From: Incurvaria masculella | Taxonomy: Eukaryota; Arthropoda; Insecta; Lepidoptera; Incurvariidae | Length of the DNA: 64,000 nucleotides | Reading direction: 5' to 3' | Assembly (NCBI GenBank): GCA_946894095.1 | Contig: OX335642.1 | Location: 14,581,021 to 14,645,020, forward strand | Shown: in pieces, positions 1 to 63,436 of the stretch | Layout: each line of letters starts with the position of its first letter | Numbering within the stretch: the first letter of the stretch is position 1 | The notes under the pieces: generated by a model | The model's input: only the letters and a program-made list of their open reading frames with translations | Databases searched by the model: none | Told to the model about the DNA's origin: nothing | Position numbers and translations under genes: made by a program

Positions 1-179
1 CGACTATTTATCTCAGCCTTAGTTTCTGATGCGACTATTTATCTCAGCCTTAGTTTCTGATGCGACTATTTATCTCAGCCTTAGTTTCTGATGCGACTAT
101 TTATCTCAGCCTTAGTTTCTGATGCGACTATTTATCTCAGCCTTAGTTTCTGATGCGACTATTTATCTCAACCTAAGCC
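1..179 (+). repeat. 31-bp tandem array (terminal repeat of a palindromic MITE)
   Basis: Five complete 31-bp units start at 1, 32, 63, 94 and 125. A decayed partial unit starts at 156. The complete units look identical by eye. Read in the right register, the unit equals the 31-bp terminal repeat of the palindromic MITEs at 43612-43950 and 58064-58231, differing at two positions (CTGATGCGAC here, CTGTTACGAC there). The array runs off the left edge of the window, so its full size is unknown. Confidence 0.95.
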
Positions 180-3938: not shown

Positions 3939-3979
3939 AAAATATACAGATAGCAACAAGAAAAATAACCTAAGAAGGA

Positions 3980-4250
3980 CTCAGACACGAAGGGTTCCGT
4001 ACCATCAACACCAAAAAATCACGTTTTTTGTATGGGGACCCTTTTAATTTTTATTATTATTTTTATTTTACCTATTTGTTCTTATAGCGGCAAAATAAAT
4101 ACACAATCTGTGAAAATTTCAGCTACCTACCTATTACGGTTCATGAGATACAGCCCTGTGAAAGACGGACGGACGGACGGACGGACGGACGGACAGCGGA
4201 GGCTAAGTAATAGGGTTCCGTTTTCACCCTTTGGGTACGGAACCCTAAAA
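3980..4250 (-). mobile_element. Lepidopteran interspersed repeat with (GGAC)n core
   Basis: Near-complete copy. The end ACACGAAGGGTTCCGTACCAT is followed by a conserved middle (TTATAGCGGCAAAATAAATA; CATGAGATACAGCCCTGTGA), a GGAC tetranucleotide array at about 4167-4193, and a terminal hairpin in which TAGGGTTCCG pairs with CGGAACCCTA. The reading frame across it is a shadow. Related copies lie at 4945, 22120, 22349, 39940, 46137 and 63217. Confidence 0.8.
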
Positions 4251-4944
4251 AACGATTCTCCCAGATTTAATAATTTTCTAGAAATTCACAATATTACTGC
4301 GAACCTGCGAACAAGTCGGGATTGACAAGTTTTTAGAATGTGGTGCAACTGAATATTAAAAATAAAAATGCTTAAATTGTTGGAATTTCAAATTCATATG
4401 GAGATTTATGGAGTGATTAAATTGCAGGAAAATTGCATAAAAATGTTTGACTGACTTTGACTTTCGATTGCGCCACACGAACCGCGATTTCGTAAGCATC
4501 AAGCTGTTGTCATTTACTTAAATACAATTTTGTAGAAAAATAATAATGTAAATAAAGCATTACTTGAACAATACTTACCTAATCACATATTTTTAAGTAA
4601 AGGAACTTTTTAATTTTCCGCCCATACGAAGCAGGCAAAATACCTCCATTAGAACCTTCAGTGATTAGAACAGATGTGATTTAAAAAATATATATTTATC
4701 TGTCTTCAGGAAAACTGAAATAAATCAATTAAAAATATGGTTATCAAACAAACGAACTAAGCGTGTAAGGAACATTCAAGTTTACCTACACCGTTTTTTT
4801 CGCCCATAAAATAATGGTTTAGAGTCCATGTAAACTGACAGGATCTTGCCTGCTAGTTTAGTGATATCAGAGAAGATGGTCGGTCGAAGCGGCAATCAAA
4901 AGTTGTCCACGTTGTCCATACATACCATATCCATATACCATTAG
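4251..4944. other. Unassigned AT-rich DNA
   Basis: No open frame of note, no recognisable repeat terminus and no splice-flanked exon seen on either strand. Confidence 0.5.
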
Positions 4945-7509: not shown

Positions 7510-7516
7510 TTGACAA

Positions 7517-9791
7517 ATAAAAGAATATCAGTCTCGCACCAAGTACAAGCTGCTCAGGAATCGGTGTAACAGGATGTGTAGAGATGCCCAAAGACACCAC
7601 ATTCACAATACCCTCGAAAATTGCTCTCCCGTGAATGCTTGGAAGTTTCTTAAAACTCTTGGAGTCGGTAAGAAATCATCTTGTAGTAAAAATAACATCG
7701 ATATCAACTCCCTTAATAGACATTTTTCCTCTCCTCCTGTCACCATCGATCAAGTGGTAAAGTCTCAAACTCTTTTTCAGCTTTCAGCTTTACCGACTCC
7801 GGAGCACAATTCACTCACTTTTCGCCCAGTCACTGACCGTGAAGTTAAGATGATCCTGAATTCCATTTCTACAAAAGCTGTTGGTGCTGACTGCATTAGC
7901 CTTGACATGCTGTTACCACTGCTGGATGAACTGTTACCAATAATAACTTATATTTTAAACCATTCCCTCTCCAGTGGATCTTTTCCAAGTACCTGGAAAA
8001 GGGCTTACGTTATTCCTCTCCCAAAAATTTCAAATCCCTCCTCTTTCAGCCAATATCGCCCTATTTCAATTTTACCGGTTTTGTCAAAAATCTTGGAACG
8101 CATTGTTCACCAGCAGTTGGCCGACTTTCTTACAGATAACCACATACTGAACCTAATGCAGTCAGGTTTCCGACCTGGTCACAGCACTGTCACTGCCCTT
8201 GTCAAAGTCACTGAAGATGTCCGTACAAATATGGAAAATAAGAATGTTACAGTTTTAACGTTGCTGGACTTCAGCAATGCTTTCAATACAGTTGACTTTG
8301 ACATTATGCTAGGTATTCTAAGGACACTTAACTTATCTCCGGTAGTGCTTGACTGGTTTGATTCATACCTTCGTGGTCGTCATCAGTGTATCAGGATTGA
8401 CAATGAATATTCTGACTGGGCTGATTTGACTGCTGGCGTTCCACAAGGTGGCGTGTTATCTCCTTTGCTGTTTTCCATCTTTATAAATCTGATCACGAAT
8501 CTGCTTACTTCTCTCTACCACCTTTACGCCGATGACTTACAGTTGTATTTGCATTGCTCCTTAGATAACCTGGCAGATACCGTATCTGAAATGAACGTGA
8601 ACCTGGAACATATACTTACTTGGACAAAATCATTTGGCCTGCTGGTAAATCCTACCAAATCACAAGCCATAATAATAGGCAGCCCTAGACTTCTGTCGAA
8701 GGTTGATTACAGCACATTGCCAGCAGTGATCTACAATGGAGTTGTCATACCATACTCCAAAACAGTCAAGAATTTAGGAATTTTCATTGACGAAACTTTA
8801 TCGTGGGTGCCCCAGGTAAACGAGGTCAGCAGAAAAATCTTTGCCGCCGCCCACTCCTTAAAGCGCTTGCAGAATTTCCTCCCAGTCCGAACCAAAATTA
8901 CTTTGGTGCAAACTCTCCTCTTTCCGATTTTGGACTACGCAGATGTTTGCTACTTGGATCTAACTGAAGTTCTCCTAGACAAGCTGGATCGTTTGCAGAA
9001 TCTCTGCATTCGCTTCATATATGGTCTGCGTAAATATGACCATGTATCGCAGTACCGTCGAGAGCTTAAATGGCTACCCATCCGTTTCCGAAGGAACTGT
9101 CATTTACTAATTCTTCTTTACGGAATTCTAAATAACCCTAACTCTCCTGAATATCTTCGTTCCCGGTTTATGAACCTCTCTTCACACGGTCTCCCTTTGC
9201 GATCTAGCAATGACAGTATCCTTGCGATTCCTCGCCATACGACGTGTTTTTTCTCTAACTCCTTTACTGTTCATGCCGCACGTCTGTGGAACTCGTTGCC
9301 CATCACAGTCCGCTCCTGTCAAACTATCAGCTCTTTCAAACTTAAAGTCAAGGAGTTTTACTTAAATGAAATGTAAAGATGATAATATGTTCTCACTGTA
9401 TATATATATTTAATTTTATTGTCCTTCTAATAGTACTGATTTTAGAATCAATGGTAATAGTTATTATAGGTTTTTTTTCCCTGGTTTGTGGATATAATAA
9501 TATGTATTAGTGTATTGTATCATATATATTAGTATATTCAATTATATGTATAAATATGTATATATTATGGTATATGTATGTTTATGGAGTTAATTTTTTT
9601 TTCTTTTCAAATTCTGGTGTGTCACCTACCTACAGATATTTCTATTGCCTTTCCTCATCACCCCAAGGGTTGACTGGAAGAAATCACTCTTAGTGATAAG
9701 TCCGCCTTTGTGCAGTATTGTTGTTTTGCTGTATGTTTTCTCTGAAATTGTATTTTTGTTATGCACAATAAAGAATTTATTCATTCATTCA
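7517..9791 (+). mobile_element. 5'-truncated non-LTR retrotransposon (CR1/L2-group-like LINE)
   Basis: It comprises the reverse-transcriptase ORF (7574-9376, frame open from about 7517), a 3' UTR, an AATAAAGAATTT near the end, and a short ATTC microsatellite tail (9779-9790) instead of poly(A). A microsatellite tail is typical of CR1/L2-group LINEs. The gag-like ORF1 and the apurinic endonuclease domain are missing, so target-primed insertion stopped early. The clade is inferred from the motif style and tail only. Confidence 0.85.
7574..9376 (+). CDS. LINE reverse transcriptase, C-terminal part of ORF2 (endonuclease missing)
   Basis: An uninterrupted 600-codon frame, remarkable among the dead elements around it. 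RT motifs appear in order: 'WKRAYVIPLPK' near residue 140, 'YRPISILPVLSKILERIV' near 161-178, 'QSGFRPGHST' near 196, motif A 'LLDFSNAFNTVD' with the catalytic Asp at about 232, motif B 'GVPQGGVLSPLLF' near 288-300, and motif C 'YADD' at about 318-321. The C-terminal 'ARLWNSLPITVR' near 570 is the usual end of CR1/L2-type ORF2. Motif A has AFN where related elements usually have AFD; the primary catalytic Asp is kept. The first ATG is only the first Met in the frame: coding similarity continues upstream to about 7517, so this is not the native start. RT copies RNA into DNA at nicked target sites. Without endonuclease the copy should not move by itself. Confidence 0.9.
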   Translation: MCRDAQRHHIHNTLENCSPVNAWKFLKTLGVGKKSSCSKNNIDINSLNRHFSSPPVTIDQVVKSQTLFQLSALPTPEHNSLTFRPVTDREVKMILNSISTKAVGADCISLDMLLPLLDELLPIITYILNHSLSSGSFPSTWKRAYVIPLPKISNPSSFSQYRPISILPVLSKILERIVHQQLADFLTDNHILNLMQSGFRPGHSTVTALVKVTEDVRTNMENKNVTVLTLLDFSNAFNTVDFDIMLGILRTLNLSPVVLDWFDSYLRGRHQCIRIDNEYSDWADLTAGVPQGGVLSPLLFSIFINLITNLLTSLYHLYADDLQLYLHCSLDNLADTVSEMNVNLEHILTWTKSFGLLVNPTKSQAIIIGSPRLLSKVDYSTLPAVIYNGVVIPYSKTVKNLGIFIDETLSWVPQVNEVSRKIFAAAHSLKRLQNFLPVRTKITLVQTLLFPILDYADVCYLDLTEVLLDKLDRLQNLCIRFIYGLRKYDHVSQYRRELKWLPIRFRRNCHLLILLYGILNNPNSPEYLRSRFMNLSSHGLPLRSSNDSILAIPRHTTCFFSNSFTVHAARLWNSLPITVRSCQTISSFKLKVKEFYLNEM

Positions 9792-12544: not shown

Positions 12545-13613
12545 GAAGGTATAGCCACCGGCCTGGATATCGCGACAGCGTTTCAACGGGTCTGGCACCA
12601 AGCTCTGCTTTCCAAGCTGTCCTACTATGGCCTTCCACCTGTTTCCACGCTGTGTGATTGACTGCATACAAGTATTGGTTGACTATTGCTACTCCAAAGT
12701 GAATTCCGGCGTGCTCTGTGCTGTTCCCGACCTTTTTTCTGCTGCAAATGAATCATCTGAGTGGTCAGTCTGAGTTCTCACCTAAATTGGCGTTTACGGC
12801 AAACCGATCGACTGGCGTTTTCTCCAAACTCCATACAAGTTTTTACTAGATATTCTGTGGTTTTACTTCTTCAAGCTGTCAAAGTCGAACTCGGACTTCC
12901 GATTTGTATGAAAACGCGGAGTAGACGTAAACGGCAACGTCGACGTATTTACGGCAACGTTGAGTAAGCTGTCAAATCAAGCTCGGACTCGCAAATGTTA
13001 GTTTGCTTAACGCCCGCAGCGCGCGCTCTTCAATTTCTCCATACATTTGAAAACGCCAGTCGATCGGTTTGCCGTAACGCCAATTTAGGTGACAACTGAG
13101 ACTACCGGCTCTGATCAATTTGGGCGACATTCATTGCTACGCAGACAACAGCGCGGTGCTGGCCACCGTGATGGACTCGATGCATCGTCGGGCCGTGCGT
13201 GTCGTCGGCGACCCCGAGGTAGGTATCCCTAAATTAAGGGTGTCTTTCAGTGTTCTATCAACTTTAATATGGTAAGCGTCGGAGATGCATAGCGCTCTGT
13301 CTCTGTGCCCTTTCTACCTCCACCCCTTCGCTCAACGCGGAACAGGCAAATAATGCATCCACTCACAGTGGACATCCCAAATATAAGAGCCTACCGATCC
13401 TCTTGATTCTTTATCTATAGGGTCTGTAAACTATGGTATGCACCTTGCACCACATAGACCTAGCATGCGCGCGCAGCATGCACCATGTATTTCTCCCAAA
13501 GTACAACCTGGAGTCCTTCAAACGTGATGTTATGGAGCATCTGGCCTGCCGGTATAACATTCGCACCCCCTAAAAGTTTAAAAACTCATGGGCGTTGTCG
13601 GCGTACGTCATAT
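12545..13613 (+). pseudogene. Dead LINE reverse transcriptase, split by a MITE
   Basis: The left part (12545-12756) translates, with frameshifts, to 'GLDIATAFQRVWHQALLSKL' (RT motif A, catalytic Asp present) and 'LFPTFFLLQMNHL'. The right part (13114-13613) continues exactly with 'INLGDIHCYADNS' (motif C, YADD changed to YADN). It then jumps by deletion to the 'RRAVRVVGDPE' C-terminal region and a 3' end shared with the fragments at 31640, 46655 and 53130. The 351-bp MITE at 12760-13110 interrupts it between codons for Leu and Ile. It is inactive through frameshifts, deletion and the YADN change. Confidence 0.85.
12760..13110 (+). mobile_element. 351-bp MITE, copy 1
   Basis: Ends are AGTGGTCAGTCTGAGTT and the inverted AGCCGGTAGTCTCAGTT. 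The inverted similarity runs about 65 bp inward to GGCAAACCGATCGACTGGCG. It is flanked by CTG at 12757-12759 and 13111-13113. Removing the element plus one CTG restores the LINE reading frame around it, which proves the borders. Its 68-codon frame has no ATG and is present in all copies only because they are near-identical. Confidence 0.92.
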
Positions 13614-21279: not shown

Positions 21280-22879
21280 CTAATGACACAGCGAGGAGAG
21301 CGCCGCCGCGGTCGCCGCGATAGCCGCCAGCAGCGCGTGCGGCGGGGGTGCGCGCGCAGCCGCGTTGCAGAGGTCCCGCGTGCACGCGCAGTAGTGGGTG
21401 AAGAGGTCGTGCGTGCCCGCGCGCCGCGCGCACCGCCCGTCCACGTGCTCGTCGCGCGCGTACCCGCACGAGCGCACGTACCGCTTCTTGCCGTATACTG
21501 GAACAGGAGGGGGGCGTCACTCGAGCATGCCATAGAATAGAATTAGCGAGCATGGAACGGCGCGTCTGCATAGGGCGGCATAGCCGGTGAGTAAGTTGGC
21601 TTACTAGGTATTTTCTCGAGTTCCAACGACACGTAACAGTACGTAAGACCTTCGTAGAGTGATATTTAGTGCAACAAAGAGCTCCATGTTGCGCGTCCCG
21701 AATTCGTAAGCGAACTGAGTGGGCAGTCTGAGTTCTCACCGAAATTGGCGTTTACGGCAAACCGATCGACTGGCGTTTTCTCCGAACTCCATACAAGTTT
21801 TTACTAGATATTCTGTAGTTTTACTTCTTCAAGCTGTCAAAGTCAAACGCGGACTTCCGATTTGTATGAAAACGCGGAGTGGACGTAAACGGCAACGTCG
21901 ACGTATTTACGGCAACGTTGAGTAAGCTGTCAAATCAAGCTCGGACTCGCAAATGTTAGTTCGCTTAACGCCCGCTGCGCGCGCTCTTCGATTTCTCCAT
22001 ACATTTGAAAACGCCAGTCGATCGGTTTGCCGTAACGCCAATTTAGGTGACAACTTAGACTACCGGCTCTGACTACATTTAGACGTTTTCCACTAATTTG
22101 TGGCTACGCTGCGGTAACAAAAACGTGATTTTTTGTGTTAAATCTTTTACGATGGTACGGAACCCTTCGTGTGCCAGTCTGACTCGCTCTTGGCTGGTTT
22201 TTATGTATGAAGATTGTGTGGATGTGTGCAAAAAGTTGCCATTTACAATTAGTTACATCACAATTAGATCTTTGTGACGTAACTTGGTGTAGTTTGACTA
22301 CCAAAAAGTTTAAATAAAAGAAATGAAAATGAAATGAAATGCTAGCCTTTTTTAGGGTTCCGTACCCAAAGGGTGAAAACGGAACCCTATTACTAAGCCT
22401 CCGCTGTCCGTCCGTCCGTCCGTCCGTCCGTCCGTCCGTCCGTCTGTCCGTCTGTCACAGGGCTGTATCTCAGTAACCGTAACAGGTAGACAGCTGAAAT
22501 TTTCACATTTTTTTTACGATGGTACGGAACCTTTCGTGTGCGAGTCCGACTCGCACTTGGCCGGTTTTTAATTTATTGTATGACATCAAATATATAATAA
22601 TGCTCGCCAATACAAAAGTAGTTTCTAACCTCCCAATTTCGGGAAGTTATATCAGAAATAGCGACGAGCAGTCGTGGAAACCCTTTAGATATTCTTTCTC
22701 TATCCTAAAATACTGACTCTCCATTATGATTGTCCGGCAGAGAGTGGGCTCGACATCTTCAAACCCCTCCGGCGGGTCTCGCAGCGAGCAGTTGACGACG
22801 CCCAGGCTGTACGGGTTGAAGTGTTCGCCGCACCGCGGGTCGTACTCGCTGTTGCAGTCGTAGCACATGATGCCGGACG
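21280..22879 (-). CDS. UPAR/Ly6-domain GPI-anchored protein, two 3' coding exons (partial gene)
   Basis: Exons: 22718-22879 (162 nt) and 21280-21497 (218 nt with stop TAG). The upstream exon opens after TTGTGATTGCAG and ends ATGGAGA before GTCAGT. The downstream exon opens after CTCCTGTTCCAG. Both borders are phase 1, so the join keeps the frame. The product has ten cysteines: 'CYDCNSEYDPRC', 'NCS', 'LCR', then 'SCGY', 'GRC', 'YCACTRDLCN'. This is the three-finger Ly6 pattern with its terminal C-N. It ends in an Ala/Leu-rich hydrophobic tail, as expected for GPI attachment at the cell surface. Insect relatives act in septate junctions, ion-channel modulation or signalling; which applies here cannot be told. 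The signal-peptide exon was not found and should lie above 22.96 kb. The intron holds two nested MITEs and a (GGAC)n repeat. Confidence 0.85.
21548..22118. mobile_element. GC-rich long-TIR MITE, interrupted copy
   Basis: The left part (21548-21714) has GAGCATGGAACGGCGCG, TTTAGTGCAACAAAGAGC and GTTGCGCGTCCCGAATTCGT. The right part (22072-22118) has GTGGCTACGCTGCGG. Both match the family member at 47479-47783. The 351-bp MITE copy 2 sits between them, so it inserted later. It lies in the Ly6 intron. Confidence 0.5.
21718..22068 (+). mobile_element. 351-bp MITE, copy 2
   Basis: Exactly 351 bp. Ends are AGTGGGCAGTCTGAGTT and inverted AGCCGGTAGTCTAAGTT, flanked by CTG at 21715-21717 and 22069-22071. 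By eye it differs from copy 3 at about five positions, so the family moved recently. It is inserted in the Ly6 intron. Confidence 0.92.
22120..22205 (+). mobile_element. (GGAC)n-core repeat, right-end fragment
   Basis: GTGATTTTTTGTGTTAAATC, TACGATGGTACGGAACCCTT, then CGTGTGCCAGTCTGACTCGC and TTGGCTGGTTTTT. This is the right end of the family, with a partly decayed terminal hairpin. Confidence 0.7.
22349..22568 (+). mobile_element. (GGAC)n-core repeat, internally deleted copy
   Basis: The left hairpin TAGGGTTCCG/CGGAACCCTA is followed by a long CCGT array (about 22405-22450), CAGGGCTGTATCTCA, and the right end with the GTGCGAGTCCGACTCGCAC hairpin and TTGGCCGGTTTTT. It lacks the TTGCCGCTATAA middle found in the 39940 copy. 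Confidence 0.85.
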
Positions 22880-22993
22880 CTGCAATCACAACAGTATCTC
22901 TATAGGCATTGACTCCAACATCCATTTCCTCCTTTTGGCACACGCTGCCTGACACTGCAATCACAATTTGGAATGGAAATGAAAATGGAGCAC

Positions 22994-23129
22994 AGAAGCC
23001 TGAGTCCGCTAATAGATGACATCACTTTTTTAGCGTTACGAGATAACAGAAAATGTGGTACAATTTTATGTGATTCTCATAACGCTAACGCTCGAAAGTG
23101 GAGTTATATATTAGCGGACTTAGGCTTCT
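22994..23129. mobile_element. 136-bp near-perfect palindromic (fold-back) MITE
   Basis: Starts AGAAGCCTGAGTCCGCTAAT and ends TTAGCGGACTTAGGCTTCT. The inner parts also pair: TTTAGCGTTACGAGA with CTCATAACGCTAA. The whole element therefore folds on itself with a short loop. It sits just upstream of the Ly6 exon on the minus strand. Confidence 0.8.
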
Positions 23130-23962: not shown

Positions 23963-24344
23963 ATGTAACAATATACCTAACATTACAGCGTAATAGCCAA
24001 GGCGTTAGGCAATTTATAAGTACAGTACACACCTTATTTAAAAACTATGCAGCTTCAAAGTAAACAGTAACTGCCTTCTGGAACTCGGCCAGAGTGCAAG
24101 CATAGATGTCTATTTTGTCAGCTATATCATTTAGAGCTGTAAGCGCACGTGTGAGCGGCGCGCGACGCAGCATGTTGGTCCGCGAGGAGGGCAGCGCGAA
24201 GTGAGGGTGAGAGCGCGCGCGACTGTAATTGTCTGGGGCGAACAGATTAACACTCTCTAGCACTGAAAAATTTTGCGCGTGTCCTATTACTAATTTAAAC
24301 ACATATTTTGTTAACGCAACATTTCGGCGTACTTCTAGTAACAG

Positions 24345-24695
24345 AGTGGGCAGTCTGAGTTCTCACCGAAATTGGCGTTTACGTCAAACCGATCGACTGG
24401 CGTTTTCTCCAAACTCCATACAAGTTTTTACTAGATATTCTGTGGTTTTACTTCTTCAAGCTGTCAAAGTCAAACGCGGACTTCCGATTTGTATGAAAAC
24501 GCGGAGTGGACGTAAACGGCAACGTCGACGTATTTACGGCAACGTTGAGTAAGCTGTCAAATCAAGCTCGGACTCGCAAATGTTAGTTCGCTTAACGCCC
24601 GCTGCGCGCGCTCTTCAATTTCTCCATACAATTGAAAACGCCAGTCGATCGGTTTGCCGTAACGCCAATTTAGGTGACAACTTAGACTACCGGCT
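24345..24695 (+). mobile_element. 351-bp MITE, copy 3
   Basis: Again exactly 351 bp with the same inverted ends. It is flanked by CAG at 24342-24344 and CTG at 24696-24698, which fits a 3-bp CWG target site. The 107-codon frame ending inside it is a shadow. Confidence 0.92.
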
Positions 24696-25018
24696 CTGGT
24701 ATCCCACCATTCCTAGAATAAATTTTGTTGGATATGTATTCGGATAAATCGGATAAAAACCATAATTCTTTTTATAAAGGAACCTCAAAAACTTTTTTTG
24801 CACTCTTTCAAGCATGGCAGTATATTTAGCCTCATGAGGGTTCCATATCATTCCGTTGGATTCTAAGTTGAGTGATTTATCATTTCGTGTGCCGCAGCTC
24901 TGTCGGACTAATGCTGGTTACCGTGTTCCCATTAGCAGAATGTGCGATAACTTTAATAATGTATCTGGATATAAACTTTTTCAGAAAAAAATGTTTTAAG
25001 AAAAAGTTATTAATTAAG

Positions 25019-35916: not shown

Positions 35917-36006
35917 TAGGTTAGGTTATGTTGGGTTAGGTAAGGCTGGGTTAGGTGAGGTTGGATAAAGTTAGATTAGGTTGGGTTAGGAAGTTAGGTT
36001 AGGTTT
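35917..36006 (+). repeat. Degenerate (TTAGG)n telomere-like array
   Basis: AGGTTAGGTTATGTTGGGTT and following units are TTAGG/TTGGG variants over about 90 bp. TTAGG is the telomere unit of most insects. The array is decayed, so it is old. Confidence 0.7.
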
Positions 36007-39145: not shown

Positions 39146-39939
39146 TGGGAACTTTTAAATGCCTTCTAAAGGCCATGCTAGATATTCTTCCATTAAACCT
39201 TTCCATAACGGGGTCACATCGCCACCTAATCCATGCGTGCATAATAACGAAGGTCTTGTGTGTGCGTATCTATACACACCCACAAGTGAGCGTGTATGGG
39301 TTTCAATACGACATACATATTTATTAATGGTCTTGCAATCAACTTTCTAAATGGTCAACGATTCGAACAGATCAGCAATATGTGGACTTCTTGTTAGAAC
39401 TGTTCGACCACTATATTTTGAAACACGCCCAAAATAGTTTTAAATAATATAAAACTACAAGCATTTATTACGTTGCACTTACTAAGATTATTTCGCAATA
39501 CAGGATAGTTTAATGTTGTTTAATGTCCGGTTGTAGGATAATGTATAAAGTTTAACTAGTGGTCAGAAAAGTGCGATACATTTTCATGTTCAGAAAAGTA
39601 TCTTTGAGGAATTTATAGAAAAAAGTAGTAAGTTTAAATGATTCATTATTATAATCAATCATTTAAAATCCTATAATTTATTCTTATTGTTAACTTACAA
39701 ACTTGTTTTGTTACTTTTGTGTTTGTAGTACATAATATAACATGTGTGTGCTGCATCGGCAGCTTGGGGAATGTACATTCATCTTCTTATCTCTGTATTT
39801 ATTATGTAAGAAAATACAATGTCATTTTGCCGAAAAATACTCCAAACATAATTAGGTTCATTTGACAGGAATGCAGGCGTTTGTAATTATATAAGTTCCA
39901 AGGAACAATTGGTCGAAAGTTCGGCGAAAGAAGGCTGTT
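39146..39939. other. Intronic AT-rich DNA
   Basis: Nothing recognised. Confidence 0.4.
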
Positions 39940-40230
39940 TTATTAGGGTTCCGTACCCAAAGGGTGAAAACGGAACCCTATTACTAAGCCTCTGCTGACC
40001 GTCCGTCCGTCCGTCTGTCACAGGGCTGTATCTCATGAACCGTAATAGGTAGGCAGCTGAAATTTTCATGTGTATTTATTTTGCCGCTATAACAACAAAT
40101 AGGTAACATTAAAAAATTATAAAGATTAAAGGGGGGTCCCATACAAAAAACGTGATTTTTTATGTTAAATCTTGTACGATGGTACGGAACCCTTCGTGTG
40201 CGAGTCCGACTCGCACTTGGCCGGTTTTTT
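39940..40230 (+). mobile_element. (GGAC)n-core repeat, complete copy
   Basis: Left hairpin TAGGGTTCCG/CGGAACCCTA, short CCGT core, CAGGGCTGTATCTCATGAAC, TTGCCGCTATAACAACAAAT, then TACGATGGTACGGAACCCTT and the terminal hairpin GTGCGAGTCCGACTCGCAC with TTGGCCGGTTTTTT. This is the most complete plus-strand example. Confidence 0.88.
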
Positions 40231-40532
40231 TATTACAAATTTTTGTTATGTTCACATGAGAGAATTCGAAATCGATCTGCTGTTTTATTCATTCATTCAT
40301 ATGCAACGTGAATAAGCCCATAATTTTGATAGAAAAAGAAATCGTACGAAATTGGGATGTCCAGTACCAGTTTATGTAAGAGAGTCAGACGAGTTAAACA
40401 GCGCAATCGACGATGGAACTTTCGCAGTTCGTTTTAAATTTTTAAAAACGCAGCAAACCTTAAAACGTTTTTCGTCGAGGGAACGATGTCTGCTCCCTTT
40501 ACTCATCACTACGAGATCCATTGCAACCTCAA

Positions 40533-43518: not shown

Positions 43519-43611
43519 AATTGATTTACATTCTACGGGATATGCCTTGCTTCCTAAAAGAGCATTATCCGTGGTATCTACATCCATTCGGAGTTGGGAG
43601 CTGGTCTCTAA

Positions 43612-43950
43612 GGCTGAGATAAATAGACGTAACAGAAACTAAGGCTGAGATAAATAGTGGTAACAGAAACTAAGACTAACGAAAAGTAGTACTTTGTGAC
43701 GTCAGTTTGCATTGCTTTGTGATTGCGTCCATACAAAATGTGTCAAAGTGACGTCACAAAGTACTACTTTTCGTTAGTCTTAGTTTCTGTTACGACTATT
43801 TATCTCAGCCTTAGACTAACGGAAAGTAGTACTTTGTGACGTCACTTTGACACATTTTGTATGAACGCAATCTCAAAGTAATGCAAATTGACGTCACAAA
43901 GTACTACTTTCCTTTAGTCTTAGTTTCTGTTACGACTATTTATCTCAGCC
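43612..43950. mobile_element. Palindromic MITE, compound copy with duplicated terminal repeat
   Basis: The left end carries two head-to-tail copies of the 31-bp terminal repeat (43612-43642, 43643-43673). Two consecutive palindromes follow, each running from GACTAACGAAAAGTAGTACT-type arms with TGACGTCA inside to the inverse arms. Right-end terminal repeats stand at about 43778-43808 and 43920-43950. Taken together it looks like two fused copies of the 168-bp element at 58064. Confidence 0.92.
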
Positions 43951-44227
43951 TAAATGTTGGAATCTCTCTGAGTCGCACGGCACGTATCCAGTCCGAGGAC
44001 TACCCGGATCTAGAAAATTCGAGCCACAGTTAGAAAGACGGCTAATATAAACCCACGATATTCTCCAATCACATCGCATTTCGGAAGGAACTAGGTGTCA
44101 TTTATTTTGATCGCACGTATAATACTATTGGTATATACAACTGGATTTGCTTGTTGGCATATGGATTTTTCATAACTTCCTAATAAACTCAAAGTTAACT
44201 AATGAATTTCGGTTTTCATTTGTAATG
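43951..44227. other. Short unassigned stretch
   Basis: Nothing recognised. Confidence 0.4.
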
Positions 44228-46136: not shown

Positions 46137-46442
46137 GTAACCAACGGAACCCTATTACTAAGCCTCCTCTGTCCGTCCGTCCGTCTGTCAGCGCAGTATC
46201 TCATGCACCGTAATAGCAAATATAATACTAATAATTGTAATAGGTAGACAGCTGAAAATGTGTGCTGAAAACTGAATATTGTGTATTTCTATTGCCGCTA
46301 TAATAATAAATATAAAACAAATACGCACACAATAACATGGTTCTCGTACAAGAAAAGCCATTTTTTTTGTTAAATATTGTACGCTGTTACCGGAACCCTT
46401 AGTGTGCGATTCCGAATCGCACTTGGCCGGTTTTTTTTATCA
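46137..46442 (+). mobile_element. (GGAC)n-core repeat, complete but diverged
   Basis: ACGGAACCCTATTACTAAGC, a short CCGT core, TATTGCCGCTATAATAATAA, GTACGCTGTTACCGGAACCC and the hairpin GTGCGATTCCGAATCGCAC with TTGGCCGGTTTTTT. The compensating changes in the hairpin arms keep it paired. Confidence 0.8.
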
Positions 46443-49154: not shown

Positions 49155-50431
49155 TGGTCGGGGAAAAAGTCTTTTCGCATTATAGTATGTATGAACTTGT
49201 AATAAAATCTCTTTGGCTATACTATTTGTATCTGGCTGGTTTTGGTATCATTAAAAGTTTAAATTTTAAAGAACATAATTCCAAATTCAAATTAGGAAAA
49301 TGTGTAATTCTCATTTGTTTTTCGTACTGTCAAAATGAGTGAATCTAATGAAGAAATTCGATACATTTTAAAATTTTACTAGAAAAAAGGTAAAAATGCA
49401 ACGCAAGCCGCGAAAAAAATTTGCGATGTTTATGGACCTAGTGCAGTGTCTGTGAGAGTAGCACAAATTTGGTTTAAGCGTTTTCAATCCGTAAATTTTG
49501 ATGTCAAAGATGCACGTCGCTCTGGTCGCCCTATTACGGATAAAATGGATGCCATTTTTGAAAAAGTGGAGCAAGATCGGCATATCAGTAGTTACGACGT
49601 AGCTGAAGAACTAGGAATTGACCACAAAACAGTTTTGGCGCATTTGAAAAAAACTGGGTACACAAAAAAGCTCGATATTTGGGTACCTCACGAGCTCACT
49701 GAAAGAAACCTAATGAACCGTGTACTCATTTGTGATTCTTTATTACGACGTAATGAAACCGAACCATTTTTGAAGAAGCTGATAACTTGTGATGAAAAGT
49801 GGATCACGTACGACAAGAACGTGCGAAAAAGGTCGTGGTCAAAGGCCGGTCAAGCTTCACAGACTGTGGCGAAACCCGGGTTAACTCGCAACAAGGTGAT
49901 GCTGTGTGTGTGGTGGGATTGGAAGGGCATTATTCATTATGAGCTGTTACCACCAGGCAGGACCATCGATTCTGAACTCTACTGCGAACAACTGATGAGA
50001 TTAAAGCAAGAAGTTGAGAGAAAGCGGCCGGAATTAATCAACAGAAGGGGTGTGGTTTTTCATCATTATAACGCTAGACCTCACACATCTTTAGCCACTC
50101 AGCAAAAGAGAGTTTGGCTGGGAGGTGTTAATGCATCCGCCGTATAGTCCTGACCTTGCATCTTCAGATTTCCACCTGTTTAGGTCTCTTCAGAATTCTT
50201 TAGGCAGTGTCAGGTTAACATCACGAGAGGACTGCCAAAACCACTTGTCGCGGTATATTGATCAGAAGTCCCAATATTTCTATAGCAATGGGATCATGTC
50301 CCTACCTACAAGATGGCAAAAAGTTATCGAAAAAAATGGTACCTACATACTTTAGTTAAATGTAAATAAACCATATTAAAAAATGTTTTGAATTTTCTTA
50401 AAAAATGCGAAGAAACTTTTTCCCCAACCTA
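49155..50431 (+). mobile_element. mariner transposon, inactive
   Basis: About 1.28 kb, normal for mariner. The 5' terminal repeat GGGGAAAAAGTCTTTTCGCA (49160-49179) pairs with the 3' repeat TGCGAAGAAACTTTTTCCCC (50405-50424). TA lies at the 3' edge; the 5' TA is mutated. It carries one decayed transposase gene. Confidence 0.92.
49335..50355 (+). pseudogene. mariner transposase, decayed
   Basis: ATG at 49335 starts 'MSESNEEIRYILKFY', which meets an in-frame TAG at 49380-49382. The frame then stays open ('KKGKNATQAAKKICDVYG', helix-turn-helix; 'WFKRFQS', 'DARRSGRP') to 50147. A frameshift near 50110-50125 moves the rest ('MHPPYSPDLASSDFHLFRSL' to the stop at 50355) into the +1 frame. First catalytic Asp present in 'TCDEKWITYD'. 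The second has become Tyr in 'FHHYNARPHTS', where mariners have HQDNA. The third is present in 'YSPDLASSD'. This was a DD34D cut-and-paste transposase and is now inactive three ways. 'WVPHELTERN' is the usual mariner linker motif. Confidence 0.95.
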
Positions 50432-51132: not shown

Positions 51133-51211
51133 ATCTACCTAACCTAACTTAACCTAACCTAACCTAACCTAACCTAACCTAACCTAACCTAACTTAACCT
51201 AACCCAACCTC
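51133..51211 (+). repeat. (CCTAA)n telomere-type array
   Basis: About fifteen CCTAA units with rare CTTAA/CCCAA variants, which is TTAGG on the minus strand. It is far more regular than the array at 35917. It is interstitial, since ordinary intronic DNA lies on both sides. Confidence 0.88.
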
Positions 51212-58063: not shown

Positions 58064-58231
58064 GGCTGAGATAAATAGTCGTAACAGAAACTGAGACTAA
58101 CGAAAAGTAGTACTTCGTGACGTCAATTTGCATTGCTTTGCGATTTCGTCCATACAAAATGTGTCAAAGTGACGTCACAAAGTACTGCTTTTCGTAAGTC
58201 TTAGTTTCTGTTACGACTATTTATCTCAGCC
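58064..58231. mobile_element. Palindromic MITE, single 168-bp copy
   Basis: GGCTGAGATAAATAGTCGTA at the left and TACGACTATTTATCTCAGCC at the right are exact inverses over the terminal 31-bp repeat. Arms GACTAACGAAAAGTAGTACT / AGTACTGCTTTTCGTAAGTC follow, each with TGACGTCA. It is non-coding. This is the simple form of the element whose termini make the satellite at 1-179. Confidence 0.93.
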
Positions 58232-62360: not shown

Positions 62361-63216
62361 TCTACCTATAAGTGAGACGTTTAGCCGCCATAAATATGTT
62401 ATACATCTCTTTGTATTGACCGCTTCAGACGAATTCTGCTTATATTTAAATTTTATTATAATGCTTCTTTTTAACCGACTTCAAAAAAGGAGGAGGTTAT
62501 CAATTCGTCGGAATCTTTTTTTTTTTTTTTTTTTTTTTATGTATGTTCACCGATTACTCGAAGACCCCTGGACCGATTTGAAAAATTCTTTTTTTGTTCG
62601 AAAGGGTATACTTTCTAGTTGGTCCCATTTTTTTTTTATCAAAATCGGTTCAGTAGTTTGGTACTTAACTATACCAACATCGAATTTCTTAACCCTGCGA
62701 ACCCAGAAATGTGATTTTTTAGATACAGTAGCTTTCTTTTCGGGTGAGATTGCTCAGTATGAGAGGTTTTTTTTTACTTCAACTGTTGGGGGTATTCAAG
62801 GGGGTAAAAGAGGGCAAATTGTACACATTTCTATCTCTAGAGCCGCTGAACCCAGAAATGTCAGAGTATGTTTGTTTTAGATGGGAATGCTTAAGAAGAA
62901 AATATTTTTGGAAATTATACTATTAGGGGGGTAAAACAGGTCAAAATGAACACATTTAGGCGAAAACCACTCATGTTGAGATCTCTGAAACCAATTGTCC
63001 TCGAAACTTAAAATTTTCAGTGACTTCTTGTTAAGACGAAAATGCTCAGTCACAACGGATTTTACAAAATTCAACTGTTAAGGGGGGATAAACGAGGCCG
63101 ATATGTACACATTTTCATACAACCTCAACTTACGCAAGAAACAGACTATCCGGAACGATGTAAGGATGAGAAATTCAGAAGCTCAGCGGTTCCGGTCATT
63201 CGTTGTTTTGTCTTTT

Positions 63217-63306
63217 TAGGGTTCCGTTCCCAAAGGACACCAACGGAACCTTATTACTAAGCTTCCGCTATCCGTCCGTCCGTCCGTCCGTCACAGCACT
63301 CTATCT
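63217..63306 (+). mobile_element. (GGAC)n-core repeat, left-end fragment
   Basis: TTAGGGTTCCGTTCCCAAAG, CAACGGAACCTTATTACTAA, GTCCGTCCGTCCGTCC, CTATCTCACG. It stops at the TATCTCA block. Confidence 0.75.
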
Positions 63307-63436
63307 CACGTGATCTCATCGTATCAATTATCGTACGTATCAACCGTGAACCAATGAATCCAGATAGTTACCGGTCTACCTTTCGTCAGAAATGAGATTT
63401 CTCAATGGTTTCATTTCTGCTAATGCTCGTTCATTG

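Follow-up and report, generated by a model that had tools for sequence, protein, structure and literature searches.

The 31-bp tandem array with which the window opens is, with near certainty, the overgrown right end of a single MITE. By the window we mean the whole 64-kb stretch analysed here, C2:14581021-14645020 in an Incurvaria masculella assembly of 552 Mb in 31 contigs. According to the overall model, to which we assign a probability of roughly three in four, MITEs of this family nest in a target site carried by their own copies, this nesting seeds tandem ends, and later growth lengthens them, the edge array being one such expanded MITE end.

The unexpanded MITE is a non-coding element of 168 bp, consisting of an inverted end R' (31 bp), a palindromic interior P (106 bp) and an end R (31 bp). 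The two arms of the single copy at 58064 (MITE2) differ at only 4 positions over their first 60 bp, and almost the entire element can fold upon itself. Since arm pairing extends well beyond 31 bp, R is an outer module, bounded on its inner side by a C-TNA-G, and is less than the whole terminal repeat, so that the equation of the 31-bp unit with the complete terminal repeat, made in an earlier note on this DNA, has to be abandoned. The same note had recognised a common unit in two MITEs at 43612 and 58064. The unit is indeed found in both and the second is a single MITE; the first (MITE1) is a nest, one MITE inside another, in which the inner insertion has produced a tandem R'R' at 43612-43673. 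Removal of 43643-43810 together with one duplication copy restores a 168-bp MITE, identical to the reversed MITE2 at 156 of 168 positions. The features of the window are collected in the table.

Table. Features of the window (positions within the window unless a contig is given)
Feature	Position	Strand	Basis
Right part of the 26-unit R array, end of the MITE at C2:14580255-14581193	1-173	+	TRF and MITE phase
TAA, right target-duplication copy; left copy TAA at C2:14580252-14580254, outside the window	174-176	.	
Reverse transcriptase frame (RVT_1)	7514-9373	+	Pfam
Quiver/Ly-6-like exon	22647-23018	-	Pfam
Left end R' of the nest's outer MITE, preceded by TAA at 43609-43611	43612-43642	-	
Inner MITE (168 bp, agreeing with MITE2 at 160/168), lodged at the outer MITE's R'/P boundary	43643-43810	+	
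TTA, right duplication copy of the inner MITE; left copy TAA, one base different	43811-43813	.	
Remainder of the outer MITE: interior P, oriented against the inner P, then right end R; TAA next (43951-43953)	43814-43950	+	
Mariner-type transposase remnant	49383-50144	+	Pfam
MITE2, single and unexpanded (R' at 58064-58094, P at 58095-58200, R at 58201-58231), between TTC and TAA	58064-58231	+	

Other repeats share the window with this family. Self-BLAST revealed a second MITE-like element of 355-359 bp in three copies (12757-13114, 21713-22071 and 24340-24698), which are 97-98% identical, carry terminal inverted repeats of about 55-65 bp and have spread recently. Runs of (GACG)n and (GTCC)n at 4164-4194 and 22406-22456 lie inside a dispersed repeat with copies at 3977-4252, 22348-22507, 39939-40231, 46143-46440 and 63209-63308, reminiscent of the (GTCY)n MITE-like elements of Lepidoptera as these are described in part of PMC9659126. 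Short, chromosome-internal 5-bp arrays of TAGGT / ACCTA occur at 35917-36005 and 51137-51210; these units resemble TTAGG, the telomere repeat of insects. Scanning the 64-kb window for Rfam families and tRNAs gave no match, and pattern searches of collections of viral contigs and of genome contigs gave 0 matches.

The array itself was detected by TRF at 1-174 of the window (31-bp period, 5.6 copies, 99% matches, score 341), and a 24-base core of its unit has six matches in the window at up to 3 mismatches, all six of them exact, compared with 0 in 100 shuffles. It is in phase with the MITE, comprising a partial unit at 1-18 and five full units at 19-49, 50-80, 81-111, 112-142 and 143-173, and it ends at the very point where MITE sequence ends, followed by TAA, which also stands to the right of both other MITEs of the window. 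The five tandem units running off the window edge had been seen correctly; the span reported was 1 to 179, and the array stops at 173. Beyond the window the array reaches 801 bp and 26 units, one of them of 26 bp (C2:14580393-14581193), and its left side is joined to an interior P of 107 bp, which shares only 85% with the MITE2 interior and is preceded by one inverted end R'. The whole is a complete MITE of 939 bp (C2:14580255-14581193), R' + P + 26 tandem R, with TAA on both sides; the edge array is therefore a part of one MITE and no free satellite. The proposal that a transposon end had here seeded a separate new satellite falls on this point, and its direction, from MITE to array, is borne out by the junction with an interior both here and in most arrays elsewhere. 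A run of 22 C at 224-245 lies beside the right flank of the array.

The target preference of the family was derived from the best 40 of 775 first-look MITE candidates in the genome, ranked by match to MITE2 and chosen regardless of arrays, a sampling that leans toward the copies most like the queries. One place beside a near twin (C26:25996673) was left out, giving 39 loci with 40 complete cores (L089 has no complete core). Neither R nor P starts at the edges of 30 of these cores; 'no neighbour' has this sense alone, and at least two such cores (L073) lie inside the P of another copy. Equal 3-bp flanks were found in 21 of the 30 neighbour-free cores (shuffled mean 4.4, maximum 11 in 2000) and equal 4-bp flanks in 0 of 30, the 3-bp flank being TNA in 16 of the 21. 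The insertion context of these 21 cores is near-palindromic, c-W-C-TNA-G-W-g, with counts of C 14, T 18, A 19 and G 17, flanking W 18 and 20, and outermost c 11 and g 10. The two duplication copies are unequal in 9 of the 30 cores, often at the middle base; copies of the family with such a difference include L084, L103, MITE2 and the inner MITE of MITE1. Over these copies, then, the pattern is one of insertion at C-TNA-G, or more widely WCTNAGW, with duplication of TNA.

A 3-bp duplication combined with a 9-bp preference, reaching 3 bp beyond each side, is given as a PIF/Harbinger trait in the part of PMC2836001 consulted. Both traits are present here, in a short non-coding palindrome with terminal inverted repeats and a high copy number. 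To judge by these sequence features, the family would be of the non-autonomous PIF/Harbinger (Tourist-like) type. Frames of the Pfam family DDE_Tnp_4, which we take to cover Harbinger transposases, were found in the genome in 150 of 390 candidates; they are frequent on C20 and C21, where several sets share the same score and frame length. A literature text search for the PIF target string gave no match.

This target occurs within the MITE itself. The MITE has four CTNAG motifs, one per tip and one per R/P boundary, and the boundary site, 28 bases from each tip, fits the WCTNAGW core. In the inner MITE of the nest at 43612 the boundary motifs are CTAAG and CTTAG, the left boundary of MITE2 has CTGAG, and the sites on copies read AGTC-TTA-GTTTC and its mirror image. 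Copies of this family, which inserts at C-TNA-G (WCTNAGW) and duplicates TNA, carry their own target at both R/P boundaries. Insertion at the right boundary would leave P-TTA-[R' P R]-TTA-GTTTC..., with two R in tandem, and insertion at the left boundary would read R' R' P R-TAA-P R. Since the duplicated TTA plus the remainder of the outer R make up exactly one R, the period would be 31 bp, and the new R-R junction would again be C-TTA-G, so that the target would be renewed.

Both junctions predicted for such nests, P-tta-R' and R-taa-P, have been found, together with variants with other spacers. The former was seen in L038, L044, L056, L058, L060, L061, L064, L065 and L067, and the latter in L033, L041, L053, L055, L057, L058, L060 and L067; L067 has three P-tta-R' junctions but one R, where stacking predicts more. 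The contexts of the 40 cores chosen blind to arrays were R,P 4; P,R 2; g,R 1; g,P 2; P,g 1; g,g 30. Of the 7 cores next to an R, 6 have P on the other side (Fisher p 1.4e-4). Genome-wide, 2,403 R-R junctions at up to 2 mismatches and 1,014 P-NNN-R' junctions at up to 1 mismatch were counted, with 0 for the reversed-pattern control in each case, and among the 100 P-NNN-R' places listed, all exact matches, the spacer was TNA in 92, 65 of them TTA.

The two junctions were compared over C1 to C4:21.65 Mb among the exact matches listed, using 96 of the 100 R-R places (the last 4 lie beyond this stretch) and all 100 P-R' places. The R-R places form 56 runs, 48 of them with a single junction, the edge array counting as two runs because its 26-bp unit breaks the 31-bp step. 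A P-R' junction stands exactly 163 bp inward in 20 of the 56 runs, as an insert of 168 bp requires, and 150-176 bp inward in 23, and over five windows on the other side in none; both junctions had to match exactly, so that 23 of 56 is a lower bound and the other 33 runs are those without an exact-match partner at 150-176 bp. In the 20 exact nests the spacer on the P side was TTA in 11, TAA in 6 and others in 3, and the duplication copies differed in 9, often at the middle base. Of 19 inner/outer pairs (3 of 22 were dropped for an incomplete module), 14 showed the lower divergence in the inner copy (p 0.064), as did 5 of 5 from the array-blind set. That the nests all stem from amplification of one nested composite was also considered and rejected, since the outer interiors are dispersed across the P tree (built on about 106 positions) and both relative orientations occur (L069, L086). 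This junction geometry shows nesting at the element's own target, and the view that the first tandem pair often arises in this way is well supported.

Longer arrays were studied in the best 40 of 475 candidates, which gave 37 clusters, 38 stretches and 43 arrays of at least 3 units. Of these arrays, 34 adjoin a MITE interior. They lie at the outer end, with no outer neighbour in 36 of 43, and expansion is one-sided, L040 alone among the sampled loci having three or more units at both ends of one element. Equal duplications flank copies with tandem modules (TGA/TGA in L040, TTA/TTA in L055, TAA/TAA in L064). The longest uninterrupted run seen has 49 units, about 1.5 kb, and some stacks of ends seem to have become short minisatellites. 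On C4, 45-49 R units and an unrelated 402-bp spacer together form a higher-order repeat of about 1.8 kb (identity 99.7% over 1,804 bp), with at least two full units at L034:1-3735 and L035:2279-3176 (C4:25361000-25371675); a third 402-bp spacer sits beside a MITE-attached array. This repeat is the nearest approach to an independent satellite among the arrays seen. If satellite DNA is understood as long arrays free of their source element, the R arrays do not belong to it. Other tandem units drawn from the same MITE were also observed, namely end-bearing units at spacings of 140 bp and 144 bp and 92-bp units made of a partial P plus R (C23:7991352-7991942, C3:26806872-26807448 and L081:404-679).

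Partners indicating a nest become rarer with array size: of the 21 arrays with 3-6 units 11 have one, of the 10 with 7-19 units 3 do, and of the 12 with at least 20 units a single one does (p = 0.027 for 3-6 units against longer arrays), and none was seen at the edge-array locus, where one was looked for. Taking into account this scarcity in long arrays, and the absence at the edge array, we infer growth by unequal exchange or slippage from a local founder. Such exchange or slippage would lengthen and homogenise an array from the tandem pair, and recombination between stacked direct repeats would remove the extra R'P. Units inside arrays differ from one another, and several long arrays have variants of their own at the four variable bases (GTCA in 42 of 49 units of L043, GTTG in 14 of 20 of L051 and GTAA in 17 of 32 of L047), which is what growth in place from a founder at each locus would leave; in the remaining 8 among the 12 arrays with 20 or more units, GTTA prevails. 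The edge array, with 26 units, one interior and TAA on both sides, would represent a late stage of this process, and the chances that it began by nesting are about even.

The edge array has GATG at these four bases in 24 of its 26 units. The two consistent differences formerly reported, GATG for GTTA, are real within the window, where all 5 full array units have GATG and none of the 6 MITE units does. GATG was also tried as a marker of long arrays in general and discarded, as it dominates just 2 of the 43 arrays. The exact GATG unit occurs 86 times in the genome, 19 of them in the edge array and 5 in L032, with further ones at 140-bp spacing (5 on C23, 2 on C1). A second such unit is missing nearby for 55 of the 86, and 46 of these 55 end in CTCAACC. 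The outermost unit of the edge array combines GATG with CTCAACC, the other units ending differently, nearly all in CTCAGCC. The isolated ends and the shared outermost unit indicate that GATG did not arise with the edge array; it is an older MITE-end subfamily that predates it.

Some of these facts could be read in another way. Thus, slippage or unequal exchange of the end module of a single MITE might have built the arrays in place, aided perhaps by the similarity of AGTC/TTAG at the P/R boundary to the outer edge and its TNA flank, with nesting absent at the edge locus and minor in general. The want of a nest partner at that locus and in all but one of the 12 longest arrays would suit such an origin, as would the outer position of arrays mostly lacking an outer neighbour, and similar models have been published for the miDNA4 and CMITE arrays, as described in parts of PMC12628747 and PMC2872659. 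However, it predicts neither a P-TNA-R' junction at 163 bp from R-R, exact in 20 of 56 runs, nor the P found opposite R in 6 of 7 array-blind cores, and the outer edge of the edge element agrees with the boundary at 5 of 8 bases, a level that 2.6% of window positions reach. We regard expansion in place alone as unlikely. By analogy with foldback-type elements, extra end modules may instead be retained as added transposase binding sites that aid transposition, a benefit proposed for Tetris and Galileo in the part of PMC4079207 consulted. Tandem modules inside terminal repeats do occur on copies with target duplications (L040, L055, L064), yet growth at one end, with L040 as the sole sampled exception, and the single ends of most array-blind copies speak against it, and the foldback trait of two long terminal repeats built of subrepeats was not found. 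Such a role would be quite improbable.

The reverse order of events, in which a satellite came first and gave the MITEs their ends, had been named as a possible refutation of the derivation from the MITE. The unit is shared, and nothing in favour of this order was found; on the contrary, the arrays terminate at the MITE tip in its own phase and are attached to MITE interiors, most sampled cores have single ends, and GATG is widespread as an isolated MITE end, so that hardly any credence is left to it. An assembly artefact would have to account for the 2,403 R-R junctions, at up to 2 mismatches and with a control of 0, in an assembly of 31 contigs, for differences between units within arrays and for TAA at both edges of the edge element, and it is scarcely believable. 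Nesting at the element's own target followed by local growth thus remains the preferred reading. The stronger statement, that self-insertion at an own site a fixed distance from the tip makes tandem ends of fixed length and so seeds the longer arrays, the edge array included, is in our judgement an even bet.

A tandem repeat derived from a terminal inverted repeat and borne on a MITE is known from other organisms, as the consulted parts of the following sources show. In Xenopus, the Xstir repeat derives from the terminal repeat of the Xmix MITE (Hikosaka and Kawahara 2004; PMC9659126, PMC12628747). As in that system, the MITE terminal repeat is the source of the tandem repeat, and the MITE alone, the array, and the MITE with an array all occur; in Incurvaria the same end sequence is shared by MITE2 alone, by the MITE1 nest and by an array on a MITE. 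The difference lies in the proposed origin, loop excision between neighbouring copies in Xenopus and, here, insertion at an own target that would set the unit length. Tetris/TIR-220 of Drosophila virilis (PMC4079207) also has tandem modules within its terminal repeats, with copy number changing inside the element and longer arrays remaining attached to elements, although its duplications are of 8-10 bp, its unit is of 220 bp and its terminal repeats are long, whereas the Incurvaria MITE has a 3-bp TNA duplication, a 31-bp unit and one-sided growth on an element of 168 bp.

Nested MITEs are likewise familiar, since 11% of rice MITEs are in multimers (Jiang and Wessler 2001, quoted in PMC10664404), with MITEs inside MITEs at preferred sites, but the passage quoted there holds no tandem repeat of ends. 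Tandem repeats borne on MITEs are also described for miDNA4 of Xenopus tropicalis and CMITE of corals, their growth being attributed in the parts of PMC12628747 and PMC2872659 consulted to microhomology or slippage; there an internal repeat or the whole MITE is repeated, in contrast to the end module in Incurvaria. In the open-licence literature searched no account was found of own-target insertion as a source of terminal-repeat arrays. A text search for the unit found four longer strings absent and a match for a 12-base term only, in 18 papers with titles from unrelated fields, and a term search of three Lepidoptera satellite papers (PMC9026859, PMC11565590, PMC8042265) gave nothing relevant. 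The kind of repeat is therefore known (Xstir, Tetris), and its origin by insertion into the element's own target seems to be new within the literature searched.

How the first two copies of an end come to adjoin, and what fixes the length of the unit, can seldom be seen. In Incurvaria the first step leaves a readable signature, the target duplication together with the 163-bp spacing of the two new junctions, and stages from the single copy to 49 units coexist in one genome, with a unit length that follows from the insertion site. If the model is true, transposition itself would be the maker of tandem repeats, and monomer length would be set by how far the internal target lies from the tip. The idea of self-targeting may be applied to any genome with MITEs of such a type.
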